Origin: Chryseobacterium oranimense
GTDB taxonomy: Bacteria > Bacteroidota > Bacteroidia > Flavobacteriales > Weeksellaceae
Length of the DNA: 64,000 bases
Assembly (NCBI RefSeq): GCF_025244725.1
Contig: NZ_CP104203.1
Coordinates: forward strand, 3,906,001 to 3,970,000
Direction of reading: 5' to 3'
Below are positions 1,881 through 24,356 of the stretch, in pieces. Within the stretch, counting starts at the first letter, position 1, and each line of letters starts with the position of its first letter. The notes beneath the pieces are model-generated. The model had not been told where the DNA came from and searched no databases. It saw only the letters and a program-made list of their open reading frames with translations. A program made the translations under genes and the position numbers.

Positions 1881-2669
1881 TTATTTAATAACCTCCTGAA
1901 GATTCGAGGTTTTAAGCCTTTTCTGATAGATCGGAAGATACTTTTCAATAGGAACTTTTATCGCCTCAAAATTACCGGAAAGCACATAAGCTTCAATATT
2001 TTCTGAAGTATAAACAAACTGAAGGAAGTTATCAATAAGATTATCCGGAATTTTAAACTTTGCAAAATAATCCTTACCGAGATAATTTTTGATCTGGGTT
2101 ACAGAATTATTCATCCTTTCATAGGCCATATAGCGCTGTTTTTTCTTTCGGTCTCCCGAAAGGATATCATAGATGCTTTCCAGGCTGAAAGTAAGTCCTC
2201 CGTCTCTTAATCCGGCAACCGGAAGCTCTGGGGAAGTTCCATCACCTTTTGGTTCCGGAAGTCCAATCACTTTTTTGATCGCAAGACCTTTATCTTCTTT
2301 TCTTATAGAATTTACGTCATACCTGAGATTTCCTGTAGGCTTGAACCTGTTCAGTACAATCTCCTGAATTTCGTAATAGGCAATTTTTAATTCAATAAGG
2401 TTTTTCTGCTGCATCATCTGCGGAGTAAGCTTCACATCTTTCCTTTCTGTGACAATGGAAGTGAAACGGATCACATCTCCGGGAGCAGCGGGGATATTAT
2501 AAGTACCGTTATAATCGGTAAGTACCGTTTTCTGGGTATTCAGATTGGTAACGTAAACCTGGTTGAGATACAAGATAGAGTTGTCTCTTAAAAATACCTC
2601 TCCGGAATAGGTCTGTGCATGGATTTTTGCCAGAAAAATCAGCAGCAAAAGGGTAATTAGCTTCTTCAT
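1881..2669 (-). CDS. Secreted carboxypeptidase-regulatory-like domain protein
   Basis: A 262-residue exported protein with signal peptide MKKLITLLLLIFLAKIHA before Q. Residues 20-95 read as a CarboxypepD_reg-like beta-sandwich of the kind found at the N-terminus of many Bacteroidota surface proteins: a vYVTNLNTQ strand, TDYNGTYNIPA and PGDVIRFTSI. The remaining 165 residues (basic, helical, with DVNSIRKEDKG and IYDILSGDRKKKQRYMAYE) match a conserved Bacteroidota hypothetical family that I cannot name further. There is no T9SS tail and no TonB-receptor barrel, so it is probably periplasmic or outer-membrane associated. A -7 box (TAATTTTG) lies just upstream. Confidence 0.8.
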   Translation of the reverse strand: MKKLITLLLLIFLAKIHAQTYSGEVFLRDNSILYLNQVYVTNLNTQKTVLTDYNGTYNIPAAPGDVIRFTSIVTERKDVKLTPQMMQQKNLIELKIAYYEIQEIVLNRFKPTGNLRYDVNSIRKEDKGLAIKKVIGLPEPKGDGTSPELPVAGLRDGGLTFSLESIYDILSGDRKKKQRYMAYERMNNSVTQIKNYLGKDYFAKFKIPDNLIDNFLQFVYTSENIEAYVLSGNFEAIKVPIEKYLPIYQKRLKTSNLQEVIK

Positions 2670-2827: not shown

Positions 2828-5800
2828 CTAATCTTTATTTTTTACCAGGAGCCAGCTTGTATATTTTACGGAAGTAGAAGTGCCATATTCCGTCCAGGTA
2901 ATAAAATACCAGTATGTTGCCGTAGGCACAGGTCTTCCGCCCATTCTTCCATCCCAGATGTATCTGTTGCTTGGGCTTCCCCTGAAAACTTCAGCACCGT
3001 AACGGTCGAAAACTCTGAATTCCAGGTTCGGATTGCTCATTAAAGCAGAATAATCGATCGTATCATTGTGGCCGTCACTATTAGGGGTGATGGTATTAAT
3101 GAGATTGATGATAGCAAACTGCTTATCTACTTCACCACATAATTTGGAGTCTCTCACAAATACGGTATGGCTTCCTCTTGGTACATTGTAAAAAATATTG
3201 ATGCTTTGCCAGTTCACTCCATCCAATGAGTATTCATAAGGAGGGGTACCGCCAGTCACTCCGACTGTTACGGTAGAACCGTTAATTTCAATAGAACTGA
3301 TTGTAGGAAGTGGAGCTTCTGTAACATTCACATATTGTTTGTAAACACATCCGTTGAAGGTAAGCTCTACCCAGTAACTTCCCACAGGAACATTGGAAAT
3401 AGAAGGAGAAGTAGCACCTGTACTCCACAGATATTTTTCAAAGCCGGGACCGGCATCTAGTTTAGTGGTTGCTTTTGAACAGATAACCTGATCTTTTAAA
3501 AGGTCAGATTTCTTAGGAGTTTTAATAGTGATTTTAACAGATCCTACCTCAGGACAAGTACCGCTTTTCTCAAATCTGATATAGTAGGTCTGTGTACCTG
3601 TAACGTTAACGGTACCTGATAAAGGATTGATATTATTCTGAGCATTTCCCAGACTTCCATAGAAAGTATAAGTTACAGCAGGATCTGCTGTAAACTGAGG
3701 AATGAATTGGGTAAGATTGACCGCTTTTGTTCCGTCAAGATCATCATCACAAACACTTGTAGCCACTGCTGAGGTTAATAAAGTAACACGGGCTCCGATA
3801 CTGAACTGTAAAGGCCTCACAACAACGGCACAGCCGTCCGGAGATTCCACCCTGATGTAAATTGTGGTTGTAGCCGTATAGCTCCAGTTATTGGGAAGTG
3901 TATTGTTATTTCCAGCATTGGCATCAGCAAGAGATGCGTAATATCTTACGTTGGTAAAATAATTGGGATTATTCAGTACAATACCTGTTATATTAGACAG
4001 GTTCACGGTAACCGTTCCGTCCATATTATCATCACAGAATGTTCCGTTGTAATTGTTTGTTATTATAGCCAGGTTATATAAAGAAAGAGTGATCTGGGCA
4101 ATACTTTTACAGCCAAGATTGTTTTTTACTACTGCATAGACAATGGTTCCGTCCGGTGCAGTATAAGCATTGGCGGATGTAATAAGCGCTCCCGGATTTT
4201 CTGTCTGTGCATCTGCCAGGGTAGGATAGTAGGTAATAGTGACCGGCGAGTTGTTGGTCACATTCGCGGAAGTAAGATTGAAGGTTCCCTGCCCGTTGAT
4301 ATTACACGCATGTAGTGTAGCGTTCGTTACAATAAGAGGTATAATATTGATGGTGACGGTTACGGTTTCACAATCTGTAAAAACAGGATCATCCCCGCAG
4401 AAAGTATAGGTAAAAGTATCTGTTCCGGTAGTGCCGGGCGTGTTGACAGAATAAGTAATAATACCGGTCACAGGATCTATGACTGCAGTTCCCAATGTAG
4501 GCGCATTCACAATAGCAACAGTGGAAGGAACAGGTGTCTGAGCAGAACTGCTGAATGTAGGGGTAATGGTTTTGGTATTACAGACATTATAGGTTGATGT
4601 GGTCAGTTTTGTACAGTTTAGTACTTTAAACTGTTCCGTTACCAAAGGGGCACACCTTCCCATGGTTACCGAACAGGTATAATATCCGGACTGTGTGGGA
4701 CTGATGGATGCTCCTGTAGCTCCGGGGATAAGATTTCCGTTCACATACCACTGATAAGTGTCATAAATTACCGGGTCTACCGTAAGTACAATTCCCGGAA
4801 CACAGTTTCCTCCTGATCTTAAAATAACAGGCTGTGTAGGGAAACCTGCAAAAAAGCCTCCATATCCTACAGCATTACTGCCTGCAGTAATCCCTGCGGT
4901 AACCGCTTTGTCAGAAATTACGGTAATAGTTCCGGTTACATTAGGAATACCATAGGTCACCCAGTTATTGGTACCTGTCATGTTAAAAGGACCTGTGGTT
5001 GCCGGCGGAACAGCTCCGTTGACCGTAACATTGGCGCCTTTTTCAGTAATAAGATTCAGCTTTGTGGGAATATTAAGAATTCCTAATGGATTAGCCGTGG
5101 AATGCACAAAATTTTCATCAATAAACCCTAATTCATTGATCTGTTTGGGAAGATAGCAGTTCAGAGCCGGAATAAAATTGAACCCGCCGGTTGCCACTTC
5201 ACTTCCTGATACGGAATCTCCTGCCAGAATCTGGTATACGTAAGCATTTTTGGAAGTTTTAAGGTAAAGATTATAATGTGATGCTCCCTGCAGTTTATAT
5301 TTTGCGTTTGGAACGATATAATACTGCCCTGCATTTAAGGTAGCAAGGGGAGGGATTTCATCATTGACAAAAATCTGGGTATTGTTTTCAGTAGCAATAA
5401 CAATGGCTCCTTCCATATTGGATCCTACACTGCCGTTTCCTTTGACCAGGGCAAACTCGCTTCCAAGTCTTTCAACAGGAACAGACTGATCCATCAGAAT
5501 ATCAGAACTTGAAGGGAAGTTTCCGGAATACTGGCCGTTGAAATTTCCATTGGTTACATTCACCGGTTTGTTAGCTGTGATTTTAGCACCAATAAAGCCA
5601 TCTGTATTGGTGGAACCTGAACCATCTATAATGTAGGATTGCCCTTTATTGAGGGTAAATGTCATGGTAGGGTTTGTAGCGCCGGTAGTTCCGTTGGAAA
5701 ACTGCACTGTTGGCTTATATCCGCTTACTGTAACTGTGGTGTTGTCCTCAGTGGCAAGAACACTGGCCATGAAGTTTAAGATGGGATTAACGACCGTTAT

Positions 5801-6223
5801 GGGAGCATTGGCGACATAGAAATTTTTTCCTGTGGAAGGTATTCCTTTAGAAGTAATAATCTCTGCATGGTTGAATACGGAAAACCTGAGATTGGCATAA
5901 AAAGGGAAGTCTGCCTGCAGATAGAGCCCTTTTGTAGTAGGAGTAAACAGATCTGCCTGAAGAGTTGTTATGATATATTTTCTGAGTACATCAAATTTCT
6001 GGGGATTATTCTTACTGATGGTTACCGTACCAATAAGAATGTTGTTGTTGTAAATATTTACAGGGAAGGGAGTGGTTCTGTTGGTCGATAAATATAATTT
6101 CTGATACGGATTGGGACCTCCGGATCTGTCCACCATGGGAGCAAACCAGTGTTCCCTGTCCAATTGACCGAAGGCCAAGGTGAAAAAAGAAAGTATAAAT
6201 AAAAAAGATAAAATTTTTTTCAT
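2828..6223 (-). CDS. Giant IgGFc-binding-like protein, T9SS type B sorting domain (array copy A)
   Basis: A secreted 1131-residue surface protein. Residues 1-19 are a signal peptide. Residues 20-465 resemble the IgGFc-binding N-terminal region (EHWFAPM, LATEDNTTVTV, FTLNKGQSYIIDG, VTNGNFNGQ, DILMDQSVPVERLG). Residues ~478-535 look Ig-like, and ~540-630 are cadherin-like (VIDPVTGIITYS, DTFTYTFCGDD). Residues ~633-903 hold three ~90-residue modules, two of which begin with CDD(N/D)xDG. Residues ~905-1038 hold an LDAGPG module and a SprB-like repeat (GGTPPYEYSLDG), and ~1041-1131 the type B sorting domain (ITPNSDGHND, VFDRYGAEVF, WDGRMGG, YWYFITW). It is the last copy in transcription order of four paralogs. 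Adhesion or matrix binding is plausible but unproven, and the IgGFc label does not imply binding to antibodies. Confidence 0.9.
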   Translation of the reverse strand: MKKILSFLFILSFFTLAFGQLDREHWFAPMVDRSGGPNPYQKLYLSTNRTTPFPVNIYNNNILIGTVTISKNNPQKFDVLRKYIITTLQADLFTPTTKGLYLQADFPFYANLRFSVFNHAEIITSKGIPSTGKNFYVANAPITVVNPILNFMASVLATEDNTTVTVSGYKPTVQFSNGTTGATNPTMTFTLNKGQSYIIDGSGSTNTDGFIGAKITANKPVNVTNGNFNGQYSGNFPSSSDILMDQSVPVERLGSEFALVKGNGSVGSNMEGAIVIATENNTQIFVNDEIPPLATLNAGQYYIVPNAKYKLQGASHYNLYLKTSKNAYVYQILAGDSVSGSEVATGGFNFIPALNCYLPKQINELGFIDENFVHSTANPLGILNIPTKLNLITEKGANVTVNGAVPPATTGPFNMTGTNNWVTYGIPNVTGTITVISDKAVTAGITAGSNAVGYGGFFAGFPTQPVILRSGGNCVPGIVLTVDPVIYDTYQWYVNGNLIPGATGASISPTQSGYYTCSVTMGRCAPLVTEQFKVLNCTKLTTSTYNVCNTKTITPTFSSSAQTPVPSTVAIVNAPTLGTAVIDPVTGIITYSVNTPGTTGTDTFTYTFCGDDPVFTDCETVTVTINIIPLIVTNATLHACNINGQGTFNLTSANVTNNSPVTITYYPTLADAQTENPGALITSANAYTAPDGTIVYAVVKNNLGCKSIAQITLSLYNLAIITNNYNGTFCDDNMDGTVTVNLSNITGIVLNNPNYFTNVRYYASLADANAGNNNTLPNNWSYTATTTIYIRVESPDGCAVVVRPLQFSIGARVTLLTSAVATSVCDDDLDGTKAVNLTQFIPQFTADPAVTYTFYGSLGNAQNNINPLSGTVNVTGTQTYYIRFEKSGTCPEVGSVKITIKTPKKSDLLKDQVICSKATTKLDAGPGFEKYLWSTGATSPSISNVPVGSYWVELTFNGCVYKQYVNVTEAPLPTISSIEINGSTVTVGVTGGTPPYEYSLDGVNWQSINIFYNVPRGSHTVFVRDSKLCGEVDKQFAIINLINTITPNSDGHNDTIDYSALMSNPNLEFRVFDRYGAEVFRGSPSNRYIWDGRMGGRPVPTATYWYFITWTEYGTSTSVKYTSWLLVKNKD

Positions 6224-6243
6224 TCAGCTGAGGGAGTTTAACA

Positions 6244-6251
6244 CAAATTTA
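6244..6251 (-). promoter_or_regulatory. -7 promoter box of array copy A
   Basis: TAAATTTG on the minus strand, 20 bases before the ATG at 6223, fits TAnnTTTG. It follows the terminator of copy B, so copy A is probably its own transcription unit. Confidence 0.55.
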
Positions 6252-6283
6252 ATAATAAAATGGATTTATACCTTGAAAAAATA

Positions 6284-6315
6284 ATAAAAAAACCGCGATA
6301 GTAAAATCGCGGTTT
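6284..6315 (-). terminator. Terminator after array copy B
   Basis: A perfect 10-bp stem AAACCGCGAT / ATCGCGGTTT with a 6-base loop is followed on the minus strand by a T-rich run. The same stem sequence recurs after copy C at 9266-9295. Confidence 0.85.
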
Positions 6316-6336
6316 AAATGGTCAGTTTTTCAGGAA

Positions 6337-9180
6337 TTACTCTCTGCTTTTAACAAGAATCCAGCCTGTATATTTTACTGCAGTCTGTTTTCCGGATGGC
6401 TCATTCCAATGAATTTCAAACCAGTAGTTGCCGGTAGGAACCCTTTTGCTTCCGCCTAAAGTTCCATTCCATTTATAACCGTTTGATTGATCTCCCTGAA
6501 ATATTTTGCTTCCGTATCTGTCGAAAATAGTGAACTCCAGATTCTTTTTACCTGCCAGTAAAGAGTAATCCAGAACATCATTTACCCCGTCATCATTGGG
6601 AGTAATAGCATTGATCAGGTTAGGAATGGTAATTTCCACTTTAATAGGATCACAGTTATAGCTGTCTTTTACATATACCGCAGATATGCCTCTTGCTACA
6701 TCAGTGAAAATGTTGGAATCCTGCCACTGGATATTATCAAGTGAGTACTGATAGGGAGGATTTCCGCCTATTGCGTATACCGTAACTGTAGTATTTGAAA
6801 CATCAATACTGGACACTACAGGCTGTTCGGAAGCATATACTTTTACCGTCTGCAGGGTAATACAGTCACCCGTTTTCAGCTTTACCCAATAGGTTCCTAC
6901 ACCAACGTTACTGATTGCCTGTGTAGTGGCTCCCGTACTCCATTCATAACCATTGAATCCGGGTCCTGCGTCAAGTGTGGTTTTATCTTCCACACAAATA
7001 ATTTTATCAACAAGAACAGCAGAGGTTACAGGAGGAAGAACAGTAAGGGAAACTTCTGCAATTCTGTAACAGCCATTCGCGTTGATTACTTTTACATAGG
7101 CAACTCCTGTAGGGGCAATATAATTGGCAGGGTTTAAGATTTCATTTGTACTGTTATCTGCATCTGTAGGAGAAGGATAATATTTTTTGGTAACTCCTGG
7201 CTGCGTAGTGACTGAAGCATTGGTAAGGTTAAATAACCCGGTTGCCGGATTGGCTTCCAGATAGCATGCTCTTAAGGATGCATTGGTAACGATCGGGCTT
7301 TCGGAAACCGTTAAATTCAATGTTACTTCCTCACAGTCCGTAAAGTCAGGGTTATTTCCACAGAATTTGTAAACAAAAGAGTCAGGTCCCACATAATTAT
7401 AAGCAGGAGCATAGCTGATAACTCCTGTAGCAGGATCAACAACAGCATTACCATTAACGGGTGGTGTAACGATGATTACGCTGCCCGGTACTACAGACTG
7501 GGTGGAATTCGTAAATGTGGGAACAATCAGCTTAACACCATCACAAACCGTTTGATTTAATGTCGTTTCCGTAAGACATGTGAATACTTTATACACCGGA
7601 GTGGTTATCGGAGGACAAGAACCGACCGTTATTTTTACAGTATAATTGCCTGATTGTGTAGGAATGTAAGAATTGCTTACAGCTCCGGTGATAGGAGTGC
7701 TGTCCCTGTACCACTGATAAGAATCAAAGCTGTCATCTACTTCCAGTACAATTCCGGGAATACAGTCACCGGTTTGTTTGGCAATCACCGGAATGGAAGA
7801 AAATCCTGCGAAATATCCGCCATAGCCTACCACACCGCTTCCGCCGGAGATTCCTGCAGTTACAGCCTTTGAAGAGGTGATCGTTACATTTCCTGTAACA
7901 TTAGGTACAGAATAAGACACCCATGCTGAGGTTCCTAATACAGGATAAGGCCCCTGTGCTGCCGGGGGTGTGCCGCCGTTGACGGTAACCGCTGCCCCGG
8001 TTTCTGTGAGAATGTTTAATTTAACATTATTGGTCGTAGGAGGCAGGATATTAATGTTTCCTATTTCATCAATTTTTCTGGGAAGGTAGCAGTTCAATGG
8101 AGGAATATAATTGAATCCCACTGTAGCATTACTGTTGGCAACACCTGCCAGTAGCTGGTACACATAAACATTTTTGGTTGTTTTAATGTACATGTTGTAG
8201 TGATTATTACCCTGATTGATGTAATTATTGTTGTTAAGTTTGTTTACCCTGTAGCTTTCTCCTTCATTTAAGGTTATTGCTGGTGTCGCTCCATTGTTGA
8301 TGAATACTTGCGTGCCTCCTTCTGTGGCAACAATCAAAGCATCTTCCATTCTTTCACTAATATCTCCGTTTCCTTTTACAAGAACGAATTCATTTCCTAA
8401 TCTGTCTGTAGGTACGGACTGGTCCATTACGATATCTGCCCCGTCAAAAAATGAACCGGGTGGAATGATGGCAAACTGACCGTTAAAATTTCCATTGGTT
8501 ACAGAAATAGGTTTATCAGCCTCTATTTTGGCACCGATAAAGCCTTCTTTGTTTCCTGCTTTATCACCAACTCCTTCAATGATATAGGACTGACCTTTAT
8601 TGAGGGTGAATGTGAGAGACGGATTGGTTACGCCGGTCCATCCATTGCTGAACTCCACATTGGCAGAATAATCAGATACGGTAACTACAGTATTGTCTTC
8701 CGTAGCCATTATACCGGTAGTGAAATTCAACGCAGTTACAGGATTTTCTATGGGGGCAACCACCGCATAAAACTTTTTGCCGATTCCTGCTTTTCCTTTG
8801 GAAGTCAGAATCTCACCATGACTGCTTACAGAAAATCTGAAGGTTGCAAAATAAGGCTTTGTCCCTTTTGTGTACAATCCTTTGTTTACCGGAGCAAACA
8901 TTTCGGAAGTATTGCTGATAATGATATTTCCTAAAGGAATGGGAAATGTCTGGGGAGCCCCTTTGGCAACCGTCACTGTTCCCAGCAGGATATTGTTGCT
9001 GTAAATTTCTACAGGAAACGGGGTTGTGGAATCTGTAGAAAAATACAAGGCCTGTTGAGGACTGAGAATATTTGTGCTTCTTGCCGCCATCGGAGCAAAC
9101 CAATGCTCTGTATCTCTTTGCGCAAAAAGCGGATTAGCTGCTGTGAACAGCAAAAGAAAAGTGAGTAAAAATGTTTTCAT
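6337..9180 (-). CDS. Giant IgGFc-binding-like protein, T9SS type B sorting domain (array copy B)
   Basis: A 947-residue paralog of copy A. It has a signal peptide (MKTFLLTFLLLFTAANPLFA before Q), then RDTEHWFAPMAAR and the same IgGFc-binding-like region (ATEDNTVVTVS, DIVMDQSVPTDRLGNEFVLV). After that come an Ig-like segment (YQWYRDSTPITGA), a cadherin-like module (VVDPATGVISYAP, DSFVYKFCGN), one ~80-residue module, the LDAGPGFNGYEWSTG module, a SprB-like repeat (GGNPPYQYSLDN), and the type B sorting domain (ITPNDDGVND, IFDRYGSKIF). It lacks the two CDD-x-DG modules of copies A and D, which accounts for its being about 180 residues shorter. It is closest to copy C. It is bracketed by near-identical terminators and has its own -7 box (TATTTTTG at 9204-9211). 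Confidence 0.9.
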   Translation of the reverse strand: MKTFLLTFLLLFTAANPLFAQRDTEHWFAPMAARSTNILSPQQALYFSTDSTTPFPVEIYSNNILLGTVTVAKGAPQTFPIPLGNIIISNTSEMFAPVNKGLYTKGTKPYFATFRFSVSSHGEILTSKGKAGIGKKFYAVVAPIENPVTALNFTTGIMATEDNTVVTVSDYSANVEFSNGWTGVTNPSLTFTLNKGQSYIIEGVGDKAGNKEGFIGAKIEADKPISVTNGNFNGQFAIIPPGSFFDGADIVMDQSVPTDRLGNEFVLVKGNGDISERMEDALIVATEGGTQVFINNGATPAITLNEGESYRVNKLNNNNYINQGNNHYNMYIKTTKNVYVYQLLAGVANSNATVGFNYIPPLNCYLPRKIDEIGNINILPPTTNNVKLNILTETGAAVTVNGGTPPAAQGPYPVLGTSAWVSYSVPNVTGNVTITSSKAVTAGISGGSGVVGYGGYFAGFSSIPVIAKQTGDCIPGIVLEVDDSFDSYQWYRDSTPITGAVSNSYIPTQSGNYTVKITVGSCPPITTPVYKVFTCLTETTLNQTVCDGVKLIVPTFTNSTQSVVPGSVIIVTPPVNGNAVVDPATGVISYAPAYNYVGPDSFVYKFCGNNPDFTDCEEVTLNLTVSESPIVTNASLRACYLEANPATGLFNLTNASVTTQPGVTKKYYPSPTDADNSTNEILNPANYIAPTGVAYVKVINANGCYRIAEVSLTVLPPVTSAVLVDKIICVEDKTTLDAGPGFNGYEWSTGATTQAISNVGVGTYWVKLKTGDCITLQTVKVYASEQPVVSSIDVSNTTVTVYAIGGNPPYQYSLDNIQWQDSNIFTDVARGISAVYVKDSYNCDPIKVEITIPNLINAITPNDDGVNDVLDYSLLAGKKNLEFTIFDRYGSKIFQGDQSNGYKWNGTLGGSKRVPTGNYWFEIHWNEPSGKQTAVKYTGWILVKSRE

Positions 9181-9203
9181 ACATGTGGGAATTAGGATTG
9201 GCG

Positions 9204-9211
9204 CAAAAATA
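9204..9211 (-). promoter_or_regulatory. -7 promoter box of array copy B
   Basis: TATTTTTG then C on the minus strand, 23 bases before the ATG at 9180. The leader contains CCTAATTCC, which also occurs in the leader of copy C. Confidence 0.55.
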
Positions 9212-9265
9212 GGAGAATATTTTCAGTGAGATTGTAAAATATGTAAAAAATACCGATTTTTTGTC

Positions 9266-9295
9266 AAAAAAAAACCGCGATTTCAAATCGCGGTT
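9266..9295 (-). terminator. Terminator after array copy C
   Basis: A perfect 11-bp stem AACCGCGATTT / AAATCGCGGTT with a 1-base centre, followed on the minus strand by eight T. Its core equals that of the terminator after copy B. Confidence 0.85.
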
Positions 9296-9318
9296 AATTA
9301 TTTATTGCTTAAAGATGG

Positions 9319-12180
9319 TTATTCAATATTTTTAACTAAAATCCATCCTGTGTAATAGACAGGGGTTTTTTCTTTGTTGGATTCATTCCAGTTGATATGA
9401 TACCAATAGGTTCCGGTTACAAGTTTTTTATCATAATGCTTTCCGTCCCATCTGTAATTGTTGAATTTGTTTCCGGTGAAAATCATGTTTCCGTATCGGT
9501 CATAGATTACAAAAGAAAGGTTTTCTTTATATGCCAAATCGCTGTAATCGATAAAGTCATTTTTATTGTCACCGTTAGGGGTAATAGCATTTACCAGGTT
9601 AGGAACAGTTACTTCCACCGTAGTAGGCTCACAGTTGTAAGCGTCTTTTACGTAGAAAATATGCTGACCTCTTGTAAGTCCTGTGAATACATTGGAATCC
9701 TGCCAGTTAGCTTGTGTGTCTACAGCAAATTTGTATGGAGGTTTTCCACCATTTATAATTACTGTTGCTGTTGTGTTGGATATTTCAATCTTGGTAATTA
9801 CCGGATCTTCAGCTTTTCTTACTCTTACAATCTGTGGAAGTAAACATCCGTTTTTACCCAGAATTACAGTGTACTCTCCAATACCTACATTTTGAATGGA
9901 AGAAGTTGTAGCTCCGGTGCTCCATAAATAAGAATCATATCCAGGACCTGCATCCAGATTTGTATGGCCATCTGCACAGATATATTGGTCAACAAGAACC
10001 GATGATTTTTTTATCGGAAGAGCAATCAGCTGGATTTTTGCCGTTGCTATACATCCTTCGTTGGTTGTAACTTTTACATAAACATATCCTCCGGCAGACG
10101 GATAATTTGTAGGAGTAGTAATTTCGTTGGTACCCGCAGTAAGGTCAGCCATCGTAGGATAGTATTTTTTTATAACTCCATTATAGTCAGTAATGCTTGC
10201 TTTGGTAAGATCAAAATAAGCATAAGGATCTACATCGTATTGGCATGCCTTAAGTATGGCGTCTCTCACTACGAAAGGTACTACGGTAAGATTTAAAGTA
10301 ACCTGCTCACAATCGATAAACTCAGTAGCATTACCACAGAATTTATATACGATCTGATCCGGACCATAATAGTTGGCTGTAGGAGTGTACGTAATTGTTC
10401 CGTTTGAGTTTACCATAGCTGTACCATGTGTTGGTGCGGTAATAATAACCAGTGTGCCTGGTACCGGCGTTTGTGTTGAAGAGGTGAATGCCGGCGTAAT
10501 TACCTTTGTGGAACATGCACTCAAAGTTTGAGTAGTCAGTTTTAAACAAGTATATACTTTATAGATAGGGGTTGTAACAGGAGGACATGTACCCATTATC
10601 ACTTTTACGGTATAGTTTCCTGAAGTTGTAGGTGCATAAGTATTGGCTGTAGCACCCGGGATAGCTGTTCCGTTTAAAAACCACTGGTAGCCTTCATAGG
10701 TATCGTCTACCTCAAGAATGATACCCGGAGCACATTCTCCTGATTTTTTTGAAATAACAGGGATTGATGAGAATCCTGCAAAGTAACCGCCATATCCTAC
10801 GGCACCACTACCTGCGGAAATCCCTGCAGTAACGGCTTTTGTAGAAGTGACAGTAACGTTTCCTATTATATTGGGAACTGAATAAGATACCCATGCGGTA
10901 GTTCCTGTTACAGGAAAAGGTCCCTGTACTGTTGGAGGAGGTCCTCCGTTCATAATAACATTAACAAGTGCGCCTGCTTCGGTAAGGATGTTTAATTTCA
11001 CATTTTTAGTACCGCTGGAATTGGTTTCAGGGAGCTCATTGATCAATCCTATTTCATCAATTTTCCTTGGCAGGAAGCAGTTCAATGGTGGGATATAATT
11101 GAATCCTTCTGTTGCTGAACTGTTTGGAAGTCCTGCAAGAAGCTGATACACATATGCATTTTTAGAAGTTTTGATATGCATATTAAAGTGAGAACTTCCC
11201 TGATCAATATATGGGAAAATATAAGTATTATTAGGTCCTTGGCCCACTCTCACCCACTGGCCCTCATTCAGGGTTTGAATCGGGGTGGTAGAGCCGTTAA
11301 GAAATACTTCTGTGTTGTCTTCTGTTGCTATGATTAATGCATCTTCATCTCCATCATCACTATCGCCGTTTCCTTTTACAAGAACAAACTCGTTTCCAAG
11401 TCTGTCTGTTGGTACAGATTGGTCCATAACAATATCTGAACCGGCCGATCCTGCACTTGGAGGAAGAGCAAACTGACCGTTAAAGTTACCGTTAGTCACG
11501 GATATCGGTTTGTCAGATACTATTTTGGCACCGATAAAACCTGTGGCATTAGTTCCAACATTGTCCCTGCCCTCGATGATATATGCCTGCCCTTTATTAA
11601 GGGTGAATGTCATGGTTGGATTGGTTGTTCCAGTAGTACCATTGGTAAATTGTAATCCAGGGCTATATCCGGAAACAGTAACCGTAGTATTGTCTTCCGT
11701 AGCTAAAACTCCGGTTGTAAAATTTAAATAAGTAATGGACTGTCCGGTCATTGGAGAAGCGGCAACATAGAATTTTTTTCCAATACCCGCTTTTCCTTTT
11801 GACGTTAATATTTCTCCGTGGCTGGTAACACTAAACCTGAAATTTACATAATATGGTTTTGTCCCTTTAGTATAAATTCCTTTACCAACAGCAGTGAACA
11901 TTTCTGTAGGCAGAGAGGTAATCATCGTTGCTGTTGTTATGTCAAAGGTTTTTGGATCGCCCTTCATAATGGTTACTGTTCCAAGCAGTACTCCGTTACT
12001 GTATATTTCTACAGGGAAAGGAGTGGTTGAATCCGTAGAAAAGTATAAAGCCTGTTTTGGAACCGACAGAGCAGAAGGTTTTGCTGCCATAGGAGCAAAC
12101 CAGTGTTCCGTATCCCTTTGTGCAAAGAGCGGATTAATTGATAAAAGAAATAATACTAAGCTGAGTAGAAATCTTTTCAT
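9319..12180 (-). CDS. Giant IgGFc-binding-like protein, T9SS type B sorting domain (array copy C)
   Basis: A 953-residue paralog, nearest to copy B: both have NPLFAQRDTEHWFAPMAA at the signal peptide junction. It has an IgGFc-binding-like region (LATEDNTTVTVSGY, DIVMDQSVPTDRLGNEFVLV), an Ig-like segment (YQWFLNGTAIPGA), a cadherin-like module (FTSSTQTPVPGT, DQIVYKFCGN), one ~80-residue module, LDAGPGYDSYLWSTG, a SprB-like repeat (GGKPPYKFAVD) and the type B sorting domain (ITPNGDNKND, IYDRYGNMIF, YWYHINW). Like copy B it lacks the two CDD-x-DG modules. It is 77 bases downstream of copy D with no hairpin between them, but has its own -7 box, so read-through plus internal initiation is possible. 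Confidence 0.9.
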   Translation of the reverse strand: MKRFLLSLVLFLLSINPLFAQRDTEHWFAPMAAKPSALSVPKQALYFSTDSTTPFPVEIYSNGVLLGTVTIMKGDPKTFDITTATMITSLPTEMFTAVGKGIYTKGTKPYYVNFRFSVTSHGEILTSKGKAGIGKKFYVAASPMTGQSITYLNFTTGVLATEDNTTVTVSGYSPGLQFTNGTTGTTNPTMTFTLNKGQAYIIEGRDNVGTNATGFIGAKIVSDKPISVTNGNFNGQFALPPSAGSAGSDIVMDQSVPTDRLGNEFVLVKGNGDSDDGDEDALIIATEDNTEVFLNGSTTPIQTLNEGQWVRVGQGPNNTYIFPYIDQGSSHFNMHIKTSKNAYVYQLLAGLPNSSATEGFNYIPPLNCFLPRKIDEIGLINELPETNSSGTKNVKLNILTEAGALVNVIMNGGPPPTVQGPFPVTGTTAWVSYSVPNIIGNVTVTSTKAVTAGISAGSGAVGYGGYFAGFSSIPVISKKSGECAPGIILEVDDTYEGYQWFLNGTAIPGATANTYAPTTSGNYTVKVIMGTCPPVTTPIYKVYTCLKLTTQTLSACSTKVITPAFTSSTQTPVPGTLVIITAPTHGTAMVNSNGTITYTPTANYYGPDQIVYKFCGNATEFIDCEQVTLNLTVVPFVVRDAILKACQYDVDPYAYFDLTKASITDYNGVIKKYYPTMADLTAGTNEITTPTNYPSAGGYVYVKVTTNEGCIATAKIQLIALPIKKSSVLVDQYICADGHTNLDAGPGYDSYLWSTGATTSSIQNVGIGEYTVILGKNGCLLPQIVRVRKAEDPVITKIEISNTTATVIINGGKPPYKFAVDTQANWQDSNVFTGLTRGQHIFYVKDAYNCEPTTVEVTVPNLVNAITPNGDNKNDFIDYSDLAYKENLSFVIYDRYGNMIFTGNKFNNYRWDGKHYDKKLVTGTYWYHINWNESNKEKTPVYYTGWILVKNIE

Positions 12181-12202
12181 GTGTGTGGAATTAGGATTTC
12201 TA

Positions 12203-12210
12203 CAAATTTA
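12203..12210 (-). promoter_or_regulatory. -7 promoter box of array copy C
   Basis: TAAATTTG on the minus strand, 22 bases before the ATG at 12180, fits TAnnTTTG. The leader shares CCTAATTCC with copy B. Confidence 0.5.
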
Positions 12211-12257
12211 AAATAATATTTGAAATAGTGTTAAATAAATATAACAAAAGTTAAAAA

Positions 12258-15200
12258 TTAATCACGATTTTTAATTAAAAGCCATCCGGAATATGAAACT
12301 GGTAATTTCGTATCTGGCTCAGTCCATGTGATTACGTACCAATAGGTTCCCGTAGGAAGGTTTCTTCCGTTAACTTTTCCGTCCCAGATATAGTTTCTGT
12401 CGGATGATTTGTAAACAGATAAGCCGTAGCGGTCTGCCACTTCTATTTTTACATTCTGCTTGATCCTTAGATCAGAATAATTAAGAACATCATTAAGTCC
12501 GTCACCATTTGGTGTAATGGCATTAACGAGATTCAGGATCAGAAATTCTTTGGTCACCGGCAGGCATCCGTCTGAACCCACTACAAACACCTTATGTATT
12601 CCTCTCGAAAGTCCGATGAAAACATTGGAAGTCTGATAGTTAATTCCATCCAGAGAGTATTGGTAAGGAGGTGTTCCTCCGGTTACGTAAACCGTTGCTG
12701 TAGAACCTGATGTCTCAATTTTAGTAATTGTGGGAGCTTCAGCAGTAGTTACACTTACAGTCTGACGATATACACATCCGTTGAACCCAAGGTCAACATG
12801 ATAATTTCCAATTCCAACTGTGATGCTTGGCGTTGTAGCGCCGTTGCTCCACAGGTAAGATGAGAATCCTGGTCCTGCATCCAATATCACTTTTTCATCT
12901 GGGCACACCACCTGGTCGTGGAGGGTGCCGGACTTTTTAGGAGTTTTTAAAGTAAGCTTAAGAACTCCTGTATTAGGACACTCTGAACTATTCTGAAATC
13001 TTACATAATAGGTATGAACAGAAGTAATATTTTGTGTAGTAGAAATAGGATTTATTCCCGCCTGAGCATCAGCCAGTGAAGCATAAAATGAAAGAATTAC
13101 TGTAGGATCTGTGGTAAATAAATTCTTGTAATCGTTAAGATTGGCCGGTTCAGATCCGCTGAGATCGGTGTCGCAGACATCTGCTGTTGCAGAGTTGGTT
13201 ATTAAAGTGATTTTATTTCCGATTTTAAAATTGATCTGTCCGAATACCGGAGGACAGTCGCCAGCGTTGGCTGAAACCCGAACATAAACATTAGTATTGG
13301 CAGTGTAGGTCCAGTTTATAGGAAGAGTGTTGTTGTTTCCTGCAGTTGCATCTGCCTGAACAAGATAGTATTTTACGGTGAAGTTTGCAGAATTGGTTAC
13401 AATCTGTGGTGTTACAGCAGCAAAGTTTACATTGATAATCCCGTCAAAATCATTATCACAAAGGTTTGCATTGAAGTTTCCGGTATTTATATTAGGGGAA
13501 GGATTCACTGTTAATGTAATCTGGGCTGTCCTGGAACATCCGAATGCTGAGGTCACATTAGTGTAAACTGTTCCTGCAGGTCCTGAATAGGCGGCCGGGT
13601 TTGTGATTGAGCCTGTTAAATTCGAGTTTGTATAATAGGTTACTGTTGTACCTGTATCAGGGCTTAAAACGGCAGAGGTAAGGTTAAAGATCCCGTTCCC
13701 GTTGACGTCTGAGCATGAAGACATAGCTGCATTCTGGGTTTGAAGAACATCAATATTCACCTCCACTTTGAAGTATTCAAAATCGGCCGGACTGCCATTT
13801 CCATTAATATAATAGACAAAAGAATCCGTTGTGTCTGTTGTAAGCCCGGTATTAGGGGTGTACGTAATCTGTCCTGTTGCAGGATTTACTATTGCCGTAC
13901 CGTTTGCAGGCTGCGAAATGATGCTTGTATTGACAGGAACAATCGTTTGTGTTGAACTTGTAAATGCAGGAGTGATTACTTTTGTGTTACATGATCCAAT
14001 ATTATAAATCGTTGTTGTAATTGGCGGGCATTTAGTATGATAATAATTGTCTGTAAGTAATGACCCGCAACCGCTTTTCGCAACAGAGCAGGTATAATTT
14101 CCTGTTCCGTACAATTCAGGGTCTATAGAATAAGATGTAGCTCCTGGAATAAGATTTCCGTCAAGATACCACTGATAAGAATCATAAGAGTTATCCACCT
14201 GTAATAAAACTCCTGTATAACAATCTCCTGTTTTTGAAATTACCGGAACTGATGAGAATCCTGCAAAATATCCTCCATAACCTACTGCGCCACTTCCTGC
14301 TGCAATTCCTGCAGTTACAGACTTGGTTGAATTCACAGTTACAGTGCCTGTAATGTTGGGGACTGTATAGGTTACCCAGTTTGGATTTCCATTCACAGGA
14401 TAAGGTCCGTTTGCAGTAGCAACAGGATTCCCATTTAGAGTAACTGTTGCTCCGGTTTGAGTAATAATATTTAATCTGGCATTAAAATTCTGACTTCCAA
14501 TCTGATTGATAAAACCAATTTCATCCACTTTATTTGGCATAAAGCAGCTTAAAGGTGGAATAAAGTTCATTCCGCCTGTCGCATATTCATTGCCCCCTGT
14601 TGTGCTGGAAACCCCTGCTAATAATTGATATACATAAATATTGTTATTAGCCGAAATGCTCATATTATAATTGTCACCCGCTCCATGCTGTACATAATTT
14701 ATGCTAGGAACCATGTAATATTGTCCTTCGTTTAATGTAATGCCTGTAGGAATTCCATTGATGGTAATGTTAGTACCGTTTTGTGTGGCAACAACTAAGG
14801 CGGTTTCCATTTCAGAAAGGATTGTTCCGTTTCCTTTTACGACAACGAACTCTTTTCCTAATCTCTCAATAGGGACTGCCTGATCCATCAGAATATCATT
14901 GTTGGTAAAATTTAAGCTGGTATAAATTCCGTTACAATTTCCATTGGTGACAGACACAGGCTGTGATGCCTGAATTTTTGCGCCAATCAACCCGTCAAGA
15001 TTATTCATGGAAGCTGTACTTAGGGCATCCATAATATAAGATTGCCCTTTATTTAATGTAAAAGTCCTGGTAGGGCTTGAAGTTCCGTCTGAAAAAACTA
15101 CATTTGGATTGTAGCCGGAAACAACTACGGTAGTATTATCTACAGTTGCGGTAATTCCTATTGTGGAGTTTACATAAGCTGCTATACCTGTTAATGGAGC

Positions 15201-15614
15201 CAATCCTACGTAAAATGTTTTTCCAAGTCCCGCTAAACCTTTTGAAGTAATAATTTCAGCGTGGTTGGGTACAGAGAATCTGTAATTGGCAAAGAATTTT
15301 TTAGGCCCCTTTACATTTAAACCCATCGAATTTGGGGTAAAAAGATCTGATTGATTATCTGTAATTAAAAAATTATTGGGAATACTGATCTGAGCCGGAT
15401 TTCCCTTACTAACCTGAACTGTTGTATAAAGTACATTATTGTTAAATATTTGAACATTAAACGGAGTGGTCTCGTTCGTTGAAAGATATAAATATCCCTG
15501 AAGCCCTACCATTCCAGATTTTGAAGCCATCGGTGCAAACCAATGATCGGTATCAAGCTGCGCATTGAATAATAAACAAAGAAAAGTACAGATAGTTAGT
15601 AGAATTTTTTTCAT
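12258..15614 (-). CDS. Giant IgGFc-binding-like protein, T9SS type B sorting domain (array copy D)
   Basis: A 1118-residue paralog, first in transcription order. I chose ATG at 15614 (MKKILLTICTFLCLLFNA before Q). An upstream in-frame TTG at 15635 lies inside the -7 box TACATTTG and cannot be the start. Order: signal peptide; IgGFc-binding-like region (DHWFAPMASKSG, DILMDQAVPIERLG); Ig-like segment (YQWYLDGNLIPGA); cadherin-like module (IVNPATGQITYTP); a ~80-residue module; two modules starting CDNDFDG and CDTDLSG; LDAGPGFSSYLWSNG; SprB-like repeat (GGTPPYQYSLDG); type B sorting domain (ITPNGDGLND, ADRYGLSVY, WDGKVNG, YWYVITW). The architecture equals copy A, at the opposite end of the array. 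Confidence 0.9.
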   Translation of the reverse strand: MKKILLTICTFLCLLFNAQLDTDHWFAPMASKSGMVGLQGYLYLSTNETTPFNVQIFNNNVLYTTVQVSKGNPAQISIPNNFLITDNQSDLFTPNSMGLNVKGPKKFFANYRFSVPNHAEIITSKGLAGLGKTFYVGLAPLTGIAAYVNSTIGITATVDNTTVVVSGYNPNVVFSDGTSSPTRTFTLNKGQSYIMDALSTASMNNLDGLIGAKIQASQPVSVTNGNCNGIYTSLNFTNNDILMDQAVPIERLGKEFVVVKGNGTILSEMETALVVATQNGTNITINGIPTGITLNEGQYYMVPSINYVQHGAGDNYNMSISANNNIYVYQLLAGVSSTTGGNEYATGGMNFIPPLSCFMPNKVDEIGFINQIGSQNFNARLNIITQTGATVTLNGNPVATANGPYPVNGNPNWVTYTVPNITGTVTVNSTKSVTAGIAAGSGAVGYGGYFAGFSSVPVISKTGDCYTGVLLQVDNSYDSYQWYLDGNLIPGATSYSIDPELYGTGNYTCSVAKSGCGSLLTDNYYHTKCPPITTTIYNIGSCNTKVITPAFTSSTQTIVPVNTSIISQPANGTAIVNPATGQITYTPNTGLTTDTTDSFVYYINGNGSPADFEYFKVEVNIDVLQTQNAAMSSCSDVNGNGIFNLTSAVLSPDTGTTVTYYTNSNLTGSITNPAAYSGPAGTVYTNVTSAFGCSRTAQITLTVNPSPNINTGNFNANLCDNDFDGIINVNFAAVTPQIVTNSANFTVKYYLVQADATAGNNNTLPINWTYTANTNVYVRVSANAGDCPPVFGQINFKIGNKITLITNSATADVCDTDLSGSEPANLNDYKNLFTTDPTVILSFYASLADAQAGINPISTTQNITSVHTYYVRFQNSSECPNTGVLKLTLKTPKKSGTLHDQVVCPDEKVILDAGPGFSSYLWSNGATTPSITVGIGNYHVDLGFNGCVYRQTVSVTTAEAPTITKIETSGSTATVYVTGGTPPYQYSLDGINYQTSNVFIGLSRGIHKVFVVGSDGCLPVTKEFLILNLVNAITPNGDGLNDVLNYSDLRIKQNVKIEVADRYGLSVYKSSDRNYIWDGKVNGRNLPTGTYWYVITWTEPDTKLPVSYSGWLLIKNRD

Positions 15615-15631: not shown

Positions 15632-15640
15632 GCAAATGTA
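15632..15640 (-). promoter_or_regulatory. -7 promoter box of array copy D
   Basis: TACATTTG then C on the minus strand, 17 bases before the ATG at 15614. It decides the start codon, because the longest reading frame begins with the TTG of this box. Confidence 0.6.
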
Positions 15641-15750: not shown

Positions 15751-15779
15751 ATAAAAATCCCGGTGAAATTCACCGGGAT
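15751..15779 (-). terminator. Terminator after tsf
   Basis: ATCCCGGTGAA / TTCACCGGGAT forms a perfect 11-bp stem with a 1-base centre, followed on the minus strand by TTTTTAT. It sits just below the tsf stop. Confidence 0.9.
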
Positions 15780-15802
15780 CAGTATTCTTATTTGAAAGAT
15801 AA

Positions 15803-16774: not shown

Positions 16775-17530
16775 ATGAAAAAAATCTTTCTACTTATATT
16801 TCTATGCATTTTTGCCTTAGGTTTCTCCCAAAAAAAGAAAAAATCGAAATCCAAGGCGGTCGTAGAAAAAGAAACGGTAATCATCTACACGGAGCAGGAT
16901 GCTGAAGCTTCCAGAGAGGCCAGAGTGATTGCAGGTTTCCTGAAGCAGAATCCCGGACATGCCAAAACTGATTATTTTAAAAGAAAACTGATTGAAATGA
17001 TTATGGCCGATAATTCTCCTGAAGCTAAACCTACCATTAAACCGATCAGTAAAGAAAAAATAGAAAAAATTGTTCAAAATAATGAGCTTAACAGCGGTAA
17101 AGTAATAGCAGCCAACAAAACATCTGCTGACAATAAAAGTACAGATAAAGTAAATGATGCTATAAATGCTTTGAAAGAAGAGAGATTGGCAAGCGTTGGT
17201 TCTACAGGTTCAGCCAAAACTGCCGGGGTTTCCAAAACGGAGCCCAGTGAAGCTAATAAAAAAACGGCAGCAATGCTTACGCATCTTTTCAATAATGATA
17301 TGAATAAGAATGAGGCTTATGTTAATATCAAGAACAGATCAAGCTGTAACCTGGTTGTAAAGATAAGCGGAAAAAAATATTATAATTTGACCGTTCCCGC
17401 AAAAGGGCAGAATTTTATTCTGATAGATAAAGGAGAATATGTATTGACAACAATGGTGTGTGATGCCAAATATTCTTCAATAAAGAAAGTAACTCAGGAT
17501 ATTGAGATTGCACTCAACGTAGCTGATTAA
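16775..17530 (+). CDS. Secreted DUF6759-like protein
   Basis: A 251-residue exported protein with signal peptide MKKIFLLIFLCIFALGFS before Q, followed by a very lysine-rich stretch (KKKKSKSK). It shares two regions with 904-1677. One is the helical segment VIAGFLKQNPGHAKTDYFK, aligned with the RDAHP repeat. The other is the C-terminal ~85-residue domain, with NLVVKISGKKYYNLTVPA and LIDKGEYVLTTMVCDAKYSS. The two invariant cysteines (SSCNL and TMVCDA) are also in the paralog, so a disulfide is possible. Function is unknown. It is transcribed away from tsf and ends at a bidirectional terminator. Confidence 0.8.
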   Translation: MKKIFLLIFLCIFALGFSQKKKKSKSKAVVEKETVIIYTEQDAEASREARVIAGFLKQNPGHAKTDYFKRKLIEMIMADNSPEAKPTIKPISKEKIEKIVQNNELNSGKVIAANKTSADNKSTDKVNDAINALKEERLASVGSTGSAKTAGVSKTEPSEANKKTAAMLTHLFNNDMNKNEAYVNIKNRSSCNLVVKISGKKYYNLTVPAKGQNFILIDKGEYVLTTMVCDAKYSSIKKVTQDIEIALNVAD

Positions 17531-21639: not shown

Positions 21640-23586
21640 TTACTGCATCATACTGTATATTTTAGTTAAAATAATATCTTCAACATTATCTACAGGGATT
21701 CCGCTTTGTCCGTAAATGAAGAAGCTTTCATATCCCTCATAGTTGGGAGCAACTTTTTTTATGTGCCATTTTACGGGAAGATAACTTGATACATCATTGG
21801 AATATCCTAATACGGTTAGTTTCATGGGGTTGAAATGGTTGTATAAATCAATGGCATATTGAGAAACGGCTTCCCGGCTCAATGCGATAATATTCCAGTC
21901 ACCTATCTTTAAAATTTGTATATAAACCGTTGCAGATTTAGGAAGTGTACCTGATGTATACTGATGAATCATTCTATTGGCCCATCTTACATTTCTTTCA
22001 GAGACTTGGTCGTATTTTCCTAAGTTGGCATTTTTAATACTCACAGCCTTATTGAAAGTGAAATTATTAAGAGGTACAGCAATTGAGTCAAATTTAACAG
22101 TAATTTCTCCGGTAACAGCTGATGATGATACAGAAAATAAATTATTGAAATCCTGAGTCAGTTTATTTGCAGTTTGATCGGGAGTATCTGTTTTATAAGG
22201 ATTAATATCACCTGCACATCCCTGCATAAGCTGTATATTGCTAATGTTCTTTAATGTTCCGAGTTTATCTCTTGTAGCTCCTACATAGTTCGATGAAATG
22301 GTAACAAAATCACGTGCCGGGCTATTATGCCAGACAGGGTGGGTACTTGCACTCATAATGACACCATTCACAGTATTTGTATTGTTCTGTTTTGCTATTA
22401 CCATGGTGATATTGTTGTCTAAATCTTTAGAAAGGTCTGCCCTGTTGTATCCTATATTTGTTTTGCCTTTTACGAAGCTTAAATTGCTGTCTGTTTTATT
22501 GTTAATGGCGTTTTGTGTAGCCGTTAAAACAGAATTTTTCACAATATCAAGATATCTGGGATCAGGATTGCGATAGAAATCCTGAAGGCACGAATAACTT
22601 TGAGATAGAGGTGCATAATGAGTATGGGAGCAGTTGATTAAAATTGCATTTTCATCGATATTAAATACATTTTTTATTTCGGTTTTTATTTTGTGTGAAA
22701 AGGAATAATTTATACCACATAAATCCAGGGTAATAATGAGCGCTTTTTTTGAATTCTTTTCAAAATAAGATGCATATGCGTAAATAGGTGTCTGGCTGTG
22801 CTGAGCGTAATAAAATTTATTTTTGTTGGAAATTGCGTATAATTTATTGTTAGTATAGGTAATATTTGATAGGTACCTACCATAAGTTGTCTGGTTAGGA
22901 GTTCCGATTTTTGACCAGGTTTCGTCAGGGGTTGAAACACTTCTTATCCATAAATCATTGTCATACTTGGACAAAGCAATCAGGTTAGTTCCATCATTGG
23001 TTAGTGATCGTACAGAATTGGCTTTTCCTATATTTTTCCAAGGGATATTAAACGGGCTGCTATCTCTTACCCAGAGGGTGTTATTTTTCTTGGTCCCATA
23101 CAGTTTATTGTTAAGAAAAGTAAGACCGGTAGCTTCATAGGCAAACCCGATATTGGTCCATGGGGCATCATTTTCACTTGCATTTCTCATCCAGAGCTTA
23201 TTGTTTTTATCTGTGCCATAAAGCTTGCCGTTTCCATAGGCCAATGCAGTTACATAATAAGCTGTTCCTATAGAAACCCAATTGGGTGCGCTGTTGTTGA
23301 TATCGGCCTGCCAAAGCCTGTTATCACTTGTCGCCATATAAAATTTTGTATCGGAAGAGCATATAGCAACAGCATTTTGTGCTATACCGGTTTCCTGGAA
23401 ACTGATACTGAATCTTCCTTGTTTGGGATCACCGAAGCCAGCCAAGGGAGAAGACAATATGTTAGTGTTTGGATTGATAGATTCTTTTGAAAATCCTACT
23501 AAATAGTTCTGTCCAAAGATGAAATTCTGAAGCAAAAACAGGGTTATAAAACCTGCAAAAATCTGCACTTTAGTTTTAGACATCAT
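21640..23586 (-). CDS. Neutral-ceramidase-like protein with an inserted beta-propeller
   Basis: A 648-residue exported protein with signal peptide ending near FIFG before QNYLVGFSK. The ceramidase-type N-terminus (YLVGFSKESINP, SPLAGFGDPKQGRFS, residues ~28-60) is interrupted by about 205 residues of repeats. Each repeat has xxLW(M/V/I)R, PW.xIG and NKLYGT(D/K)K, about 40 residues apart (four to five blades, tectonin-like). The hydrolase resumes at ~267 with PIYAYASYFE, ALIITLDLCGI, then SHTHYAP (320-326), STHPVWHN (414-421) and MQGCAGDINP (454-463), matching the zinc-binding and catalytic regions of neutral ceramidases. The start overlaps the previous stop (TAATG). It has no T9SS tail. Hydrolysis of ceramide or a related amide is likely but unproven. 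Confidence 0.85.
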   Translation of the reverse strand: MMSKTKVQIFAGFITLFLLQNFIFGQNYLVGFSKESINPNTNILSSPLAGFGDPKQGRFSISFQETGIAQNAVAICSSDTKFYMATSDNRLWQADINNSAPNWVSIGTAYYVTALAYGNGKLYGTDKNNKLWMRNASENDAPWTNIGFAYEATGLTFLNNKLYGTKKNNTLWVRDSSPFNIPWKNIGKANSVRSLTNDGTNLIALSKYDNDLWIRSVSTPDETWSKIGTPNQTTYGRYLSNITYTNNKLYAISNKNKFYYAQHSQTPIYAYASYFEKNSKKALIITLDLCGINYSFSHKIKTEIKNVFNIDENAILINCSHTHYAPLSQSYSCLQDFYRNPDPRYLDIVKNSVLTATQNAINNKTDSNLSFVKGKTNIGYNRADLSKDLDNNITMVIAKQNNTNTVNGVIMSASTHPVWHNSPARDFVTISSNYVGATRDKLGTLKNISNIQLMQGCAGDINPYKTDTPDQTANKLTQDFNNLFSVSSSAVTGEITVKFDSIAVPLNNFTFNKAVSIKNANLGKYDQVSERNVRWANRMIHQYTSGTLPKSATVYIQILKIGDWNIIALSREAVSQYAIDLYNHFNPMKLTVLGYSNDVSSYLPVKWHIKKVAPNYEGYESFFIYGQSGIPVDNVEDIILTKIYSMMQ

Positions 23587-24356
23587 TAATTCTCTTTTAC
23601 AATTTTCTGTTCAAAAACCTCTTTATTTTCATAGGACCCTTTAAGAAGATATATTCCTGCCGGAAGATCCGAAATATCAATAGAATTTATATCTGAGTAG
23701 GTCTTTAACAGCGTGTTATCCATACTAAAGACCTGAAGAGATTTAATGGTTGTTTCTATACTAAGTTCTCCGGCTGTAGGATTAGGATAAAATAATGATT
23801 GGTTTTTTTCAGATACCGGTTTCCCCTGAACCGATACATTATCTATAAACCAGTTATTGCCATCATCATCTTTTTTTACAAAAGCAATATAGATTTGCTT
23901 ATTATCAAATTTTGAAATGTTGATTCTTTTCAAACTGAAGTTTTTGCCAAATGATCCATCGGTATAAGATGCGACTGTTTGAAACTGATCGCGATTGACT
24001 TGAGAATCTGTGGATACTTTTATTTCGTATTTTGTAGAATTACCGGTAAATGAGTTGTGTTGCGAAAATACTAGAAAATTGCCCTTATAATTAGTTAAAT
24101 CTATTTTCGGACTAATAAGCCAGTCTTCATTTAATTCACCTGAATTCTCATATCTTACAAAGAAACACTTATCAGAGCCATCTTTATTCAGACTCTCTAA
24201 TTGCCAATTGTTAAAATCATCTCCTGCATCATTTTTACCTCTTAAAACAGCCCATTCTTCGGGGACTTTTGAAAGGTTATAATTATTGAAATTATCAGAA
24301 AACTGCCCATAAAAGAAAGAGCTCAATAATAGAAGACCTGTAAAAATCAATTTCAT
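23586..24356 (-). CDS. Choice-of-anchor J / cleaved-adhesin-like protein, T9SS type A sorting domain
   Basis: A 256-residue secreted protein. The signal peptide (MKLIFTGLLLLSSFFYG, then Q) is followed by a jelly-roll domain of the choice-of-anchor J kind (NDAGDDFNNWQLES, NEDWLISPKIDLTNYKG, IAFVKKDDDGNNWFIDNV). The last ~75 residues are a T9SS type A tail (LFYPNPTAGELSIE, IDISDLPAGIYLLKG, FEQKIVKEN). It should cross the outer membrane through T9SS and be anchored or released. Its TAA overlaps the ATG of the ceramidase-like gene by one base, so the two are translationally coupled and may work together on lipids or host glycolipids (inference). Confidence 0.9.
   Translation of the reverse strand: MKLIFTGLLLLSSFFYGQFSDNFNNYNLSKVPEEWAVLRGKNDAGDDFNNWQLESLNKDGSDKCFFVRYENSGELNEDWLISPKIDLTNYKGNFLVFSQHNSFTGNSTKYEIKVSTDSQVNRDQFQTVASYTDGSFGKNFSLKRINISKFDNKQIYIAFVKKDDDGNNWFIDNVSVQGKPVSEKNQSLFYPNPTAGELSIETTIKSLQVFSMDNTLLKTYSDINSIDISDLPAGIYLLKGSYENKEVFEQKIVKEN

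Follow-up and report, generated by a model that had tools for sequence, protein, structure and literature searches.

The window analysed here is a 64,000-nt stretch of the 4.37 Mb chromosome of Chryseobacterium oranimense, and close to its start four genes, G1 to G4, follow one another head to tail on the minus strand. The features of the locus are as follows.

12258..15614, minus strand: G1, 1118 aa, ATG at 15614; PF17517 head and T9SS type B tail; occupies the first position of the array, which is dispensable
9319..12180, minus strand: G2, 953 aa; PF17517 head, Big_9/cadherin-like module and type B tail
6337..9180, minus strand: G3, 947 aa; PF17517 head and type B tail
2828..6223, minus strand: G4, 1131 aa; invariant last copy with 1:1 orthologues throughout the genus
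1881..2669, minus strand: CarbopepD_reg-like protein, 262 aa; adjoins the downstream end of the array throughout the genus
15756..15780, minus strand: intrinsic terminator after tsf, which sets the array apart from this housekeeping gene
15633..15640, minus strand: -7 box TACATTTG before G1, conserved in congeners
12203..12210, minus strand: -7 box TAAATTTG before G2, conserved in congeners
9204..9211, minus strand: -7 box TATTTTTG before G3, conserved in congeners
6244..6251, minus strand: -7 box TAAATTTG before G4, conserved in congeners
9273..9295, minus strand: terminator after G2, present in 47 of 50 G2-to-G3 gaps of related loci
6290..6315, minus strand: terminator after G3, present in 51 of 53 G3-to-G4 gaps of related loci

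The open reading frames bear out the initial annotation as to four neighbouring same-strand genes; its label "giant" is overstated for products of 947-1131 aa. A search of the genome located PF17517 genes only in G1-G4, and the best relatives reach 97% over the G4 protein. Two DUF6759 genes, both conserved in the genus, occupy opposite flanks of the array (904-1677 and 16775-17530). Further along the window, at 21640-24356, a 648-aa secreted-looking protein with no Pfam domain above cut-off is encoded by a gene that overlaps by 1 base with a gene carrying a T9SS type A tail (PF18962), alongside a glycosyltransferase cluster.

The starts of all four array proteins are positively charged and hydrophobic and, judged by eye, resemble signal peptides. 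The IgGFc_binding domain PF17517 was detected by Pfam in the N-terminal part of each (ca. residues 130-450) with 131-138 bits for a curated cut-off of 25.6 bits, and each C-terminus carries the type B sorting domain TIGR04131 (56-67 bits; cut-off of 35 bits) as well as a CHU_C domain (PF13585) above the Pfam cut-off, so that both regions are found in every copy, as had been claimed. The Ig/cadherin-like modules attributed to all four stand in part: G2 is the sole copy passing the Pfam cut-off (Big_9, 32.3 bits; Cadherin_5, 26.8) and a chain of Ig-like beads is visible in the AlphaFold model of G4 (pLDDT 83, pTM 0.51), whereas no Pfam Ig or cadherin domain was found above cut-off in the three copies other than G2. 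The SprB-like repeat that was likewise assigned to each copy is overstated, PF13573 being seen in one copy only and below threshold (17.1 bits for a cut-off of 28).

A -7 box (TANNTTTG) occurs on the coding strand at 6244, 9204, 12203 and 15633, where it starts 26-31 nt before each ATG. That every copy has its own box, as proposed earlier, extends to related loci: in 80 of these, 247 of the 258 array genes carry such a box 15-45 nt ahead of the start, for a chance expectation of 2.65% per gene. A hairpin-plus-T terminator was found after G1 in a single one of 38 G1-to-G2 gaps of related loci, versus more than 93% of the gaps after G2 and G3, and G1 perhaps reads through into G2. With its own box and, for all but G1, usually its own terminator, each copy comes close to a self-contained cassette that can be gained or lost independently and is probably expressed separately.

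The four copies are old paralogues as judged from their sequences. Nucleotide identity in 60-codon windows ranges from 40 to 77% with no near-identical tract, which excludes an assembly collapse or a recent duplication and indicates that the array is real; the sequences of their heads differ by 40-50%. Across about 30 congeners that were sampled, this locus comprises 2-6 copies bounded by tsf on one side, with a DUF6759 gene beyond it, and by the 262-aa CarbopepD_reg-like gene on the other, followed by a DUF6759 gene and trmB. The CarbopepD_reg-like gene was considered as a dedicated partner of the array and rejected, since homologues occur in genomes devoid of PF17517. Between 3 and 9 PF17517 genes per genome were counted in the 35 congeners searched, and of 33 genera sampled in the family (Weeksellaceae), 18 have the domain. 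The initial annotation regarded the array as unusual; this is not supported, since several family copies occur in each of the 35 sampled congeners and three tandem arrays hold 11 of the present genome's 12 type B genes. The array is most likely genus-wide and evolving rather than an anomaly.

In a tree of 124 proteins, all G4 sequences fall in one clade, in a 1:1 relation across the genus and with a nearly constant length of ca. 1131 aa, while first copies of the G1 type form two old lineages and the middle copies are mixed. G1 is missing from C. oranimense DSM 19055, C. elymi and genome G012, each of which has retained different leftover ends of G1, indicating that these absences are losses; the near relative Chryseobacterium sp. 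BLS98 retains all four copies. A horizontal gain of G1, hinted at by a first tree, was rejected in view of a near relative with all four copies (L080, G1 at 95%) and of the 3' remnants of G1 in C. oranimense. G4 is the conserved core copy and the others represent an evolving repertoire that duplicates and decays.

The head of G4 (residues 20-462) is predicted as a single compact all-beta unit (pLDDT 86.5, pTM 0.89). The first of its sandwiches is similar to 1nc7 (93 residues, Z 9.7), but no solved structure covering the whole head was found with Foldseek or VIA-align, so that any ligand is a guess. In a viral library, the only match spanning the whole head (window 4838-6166) was FirrV-1-C4 from a brown-alga virus, whose fold the prediction resembles (TM 0.50, E 5e-9). 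The IgGFc name is a family label and does not imply IgG binding. That the array proteins bind host IgG by its Fc part for immune evasion, as the name would have it, is highly improbable: the head is homologous at the Pfam level to a family named after the human mucus protein FCGBP, with which it shares a PF17517-type N-terminal domain, but the carriers are, to judge from their species and strain labels, largely bacteria of soil, plants, sediment and water, where IgG is absent, and the sequence matches to Fc-gamma receptors (E 0.017 or worse) lie outside the head, in a generic Ig bead at residues 482-517. Past the N-terminal domain, FCGBP continues with VWD-C8-TIL repeats (PMC9354016), in place of which the array heads are followed by Ig beads and a T9SS signal. 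No report on PF17517 proteins in T9SS bacteria was found in the open-access literature.

A hint as to the role of the head comes from two other type B proteins of the genome, in which N-terminal legume-lectin heads are carried on the same tail as that of the array proteins. This pair is encoded inside a separate four-gene type B array (L076:10266-15031, genome ca. 3066265-3071030). The tails of the lectin-headed proteins are 55-70% identical to those of G2 and G3 over ca. 320-330 residues, the upper value being reached by G3 (70% over 332 aa). Within the tail, the best conserved stretch spans ca. 226 residues, in line with a reported requirement of up to 235 residues for efficient type B secretion (PMC12618676). 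The G3 tail and a lectin-headed gene were considered as partners in a recent gene conversion; this was rejected because the 92% identical stretch has diverged third positions, which reflects purifying selection. In the tail tree, PF17517 and lectin proteins are mixed, with starred branches, and G2 and G3 group with the lectin proteins (98/93), which would fit head swapping between arrays, but a single PF17517 clade was not rejected in a test (p 0.215). The occurrence of lectin heads on the same tail indicates that the PF17517 domain is probably an adhesin head, and its standing in the place of a lectin suggests, by analogy, ligand binding.

Altogether 12 type B substrates were identified with TIGR04131 in this genome, in clusters of 4, 3, 4 and 1; besides the array, three genes are located at 1.99 Mb, four at 3.06-3.07 Mb and one at 2.48 Mb. 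SprA is present. Two independent models each detected a single PorP/SprF-like gene (genome position 2648512-2649426). The array is without a neighbouring shuttle gene, a point that is new relative to the initial annotation: in a genome-wide profile search the sole copy lies 1.26 Mb away, although a shuttle gene directly downstream of its substrate is a common and not a universal arrangement, so that its absence is not decisive. The sole gene (L074:8477-9445) adjoins what appear to be a pseudouridine synthase gene and a PASTA-repeat gene, and no substrate. These gene counts suggest that the 12 type B proteins all rely on one distant shuttle with a single gene copy, and a shared shuttle is the simplest reading.

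The same imbalance was observed in 20 congeners, each with one full-length PorP/SprF (split over two contigs in one draft) versus 10-19 type B substrates. In a set of 80 family genomes, a full-length PorP was absent from all 12 that have no TIGR04131 and present in 67 of the 68 that have it, the exception being a 56% complete genome (Fisher p 2e-13, uncorrected for kinship). Such co-occurrence would also arise from loss of the whole T9SS, which would weaken the argument for one shuttle. A second PorP gene occurs in some genera of the family, in several instances next to a type B gene, and the one-shuttle rule is accordingly strongest in Chryseobacterium. In a family with many PorP genes (G037), a candidate orthologue of the shuttle was discarded, the best match being only 30% identical and devoid of an rluD neighbour. 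The tails of G1-G4 are 46-57% identical to each other; those of another array (L075) are only 33-41% identical to them, which is below the identity at which shuttle sharing has been demonstrated.

Type B substrates have mainly been studied in Flavobacterium johnsoniae, where most have a private adjoining shuttle gene, in contrast to the present genome in which 12 of 12 appear to share only one. SprB, the gliding adhesin of that species, is like the array proteins a type B T9SS cargo and a surface adhesin (as predicted here); it differs in having its own shuttle gene, sprF, next door, and the array proteins have no SprB repeat above cut-off. SprB is also far larger. In F. johnsoniae, 9 of 12 type B substrates have an adjacent shuttle gene, and the orphans Fjoh_1123, Fjoh_1720 and Fjoh_4934 share the shuttle Fjoh_1677 (PMC12618676). 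The array proteins are like these orphans in their type B tail, in the lack of an adjacent PorP/SprF and in having tails similar enough for a shared shuttle.

Taken together, the sequence features indicate that G1-G4 most likely encode surface-displayed, adhesin-like T9SS type B proteins, and we regard it as reasonably probable that the locus is an array of modular surface adhesins displayed via one shared PorP/SprF shuttle. The adhesive or matrix-binding system initially proposed is thereby retained in part: an adhesive surface with diverged copies and separate promoters is supported indirectly, by the type B signal, the bead-like stalk and the lectin-headed sister proteins, and IgG or matrix binding is not.

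Two other roles were weighed. The array proteins might be mainly structural, sticking to each other or to their counterparts on neighbouring cells and so forming a fibrous coat or biofilm matrix. The bead chain is similar in fold to homophilic Ig adhesion proteins, and the best structural matches of the G4 stalk include six fragments of the grappling hook protein GhpA from Aureispira (PDB 9flx, 9flu, 9fls, 9flp, 9flv and 9g8b; Z 8.1-8.6), likewise a chain of Ig-like beads but several times larger (chain numbering to about 5000) and without a sequence match to the array at E 1 or better. Type B tails of F. johnsoniae can, moreover, anchor cargo at the surface (PMC12618676). Z-scores of about 8 are, however, only modestly above background for Ig-like beads, Foldseek matches to Ig chains are generic, and heads that differ as they do here, on copies that come and go, fit divergent ligands better than a single self-assembling coat; we consider this role unlikely, albeit the least so of the alternatives. 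A role away from the cell, in which the proteins are released and serve as scavengers or glycan-binding factors in the surrounding medium instead of as surface adhesins, appears distinctly less probable. Release is known for other T9SS cargo, for example AmyB, which has a type A tail (PMC12618676), and the bead folds also match the glycan-binding proteins BT4661 and SGBP-B, but the type B tails studied so far hold their cargo on the surface (PMC12618676) and the Pfam search found no enzyme domain in the array proteins.

In the favoured reading of modular adhesins, each protein would consist of a signal peptide, an all-beta PF17517 head of ca. 440 residues as putative ligand binder, a rod of Ig-like beads that resembles, if only modestly above background, the grappling hook protein GhpA, and a type B tail of ca. 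230 residues. Each gene is preceded by its own promoter box and, except for G1, usually followed by its own terminator. As expected from their families, the products would be exported by Sec and then pass through the T9SS translocon with SprA; with no shuttle gene alongside, the 12 type B tails would be handed to the single PorP/SprF-like outer-membrane shuttle 1.26 Mb away, as the gene counts support, and be retained at the surface through it. The common display tail may then carry heads of different binding specificity, of the IgGFc type here and of the legume-lectin type in another array. More tentatively, and with chances that we place somewhat short of even, one PorP/SprF may be a shared outer-membrane partner for the family's type B secretome (1 to 19 substrates per genome), serving exchangeable adhesin heads with no cognate shuttle per substrate, with the PF17517 head as an unsolved fold whose ligand specificity diversifies copy by copy.

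The array offers natural variants of a widespread, uncharacterised head domain that is common to human FCGBP. The presence in the genus of one shuttle versus 10 to 19 substrates also provides a clean genetic test of type B display: if the one-shuttle model is true, deletion of one gene should leave the surface without any of its type B repertoire.
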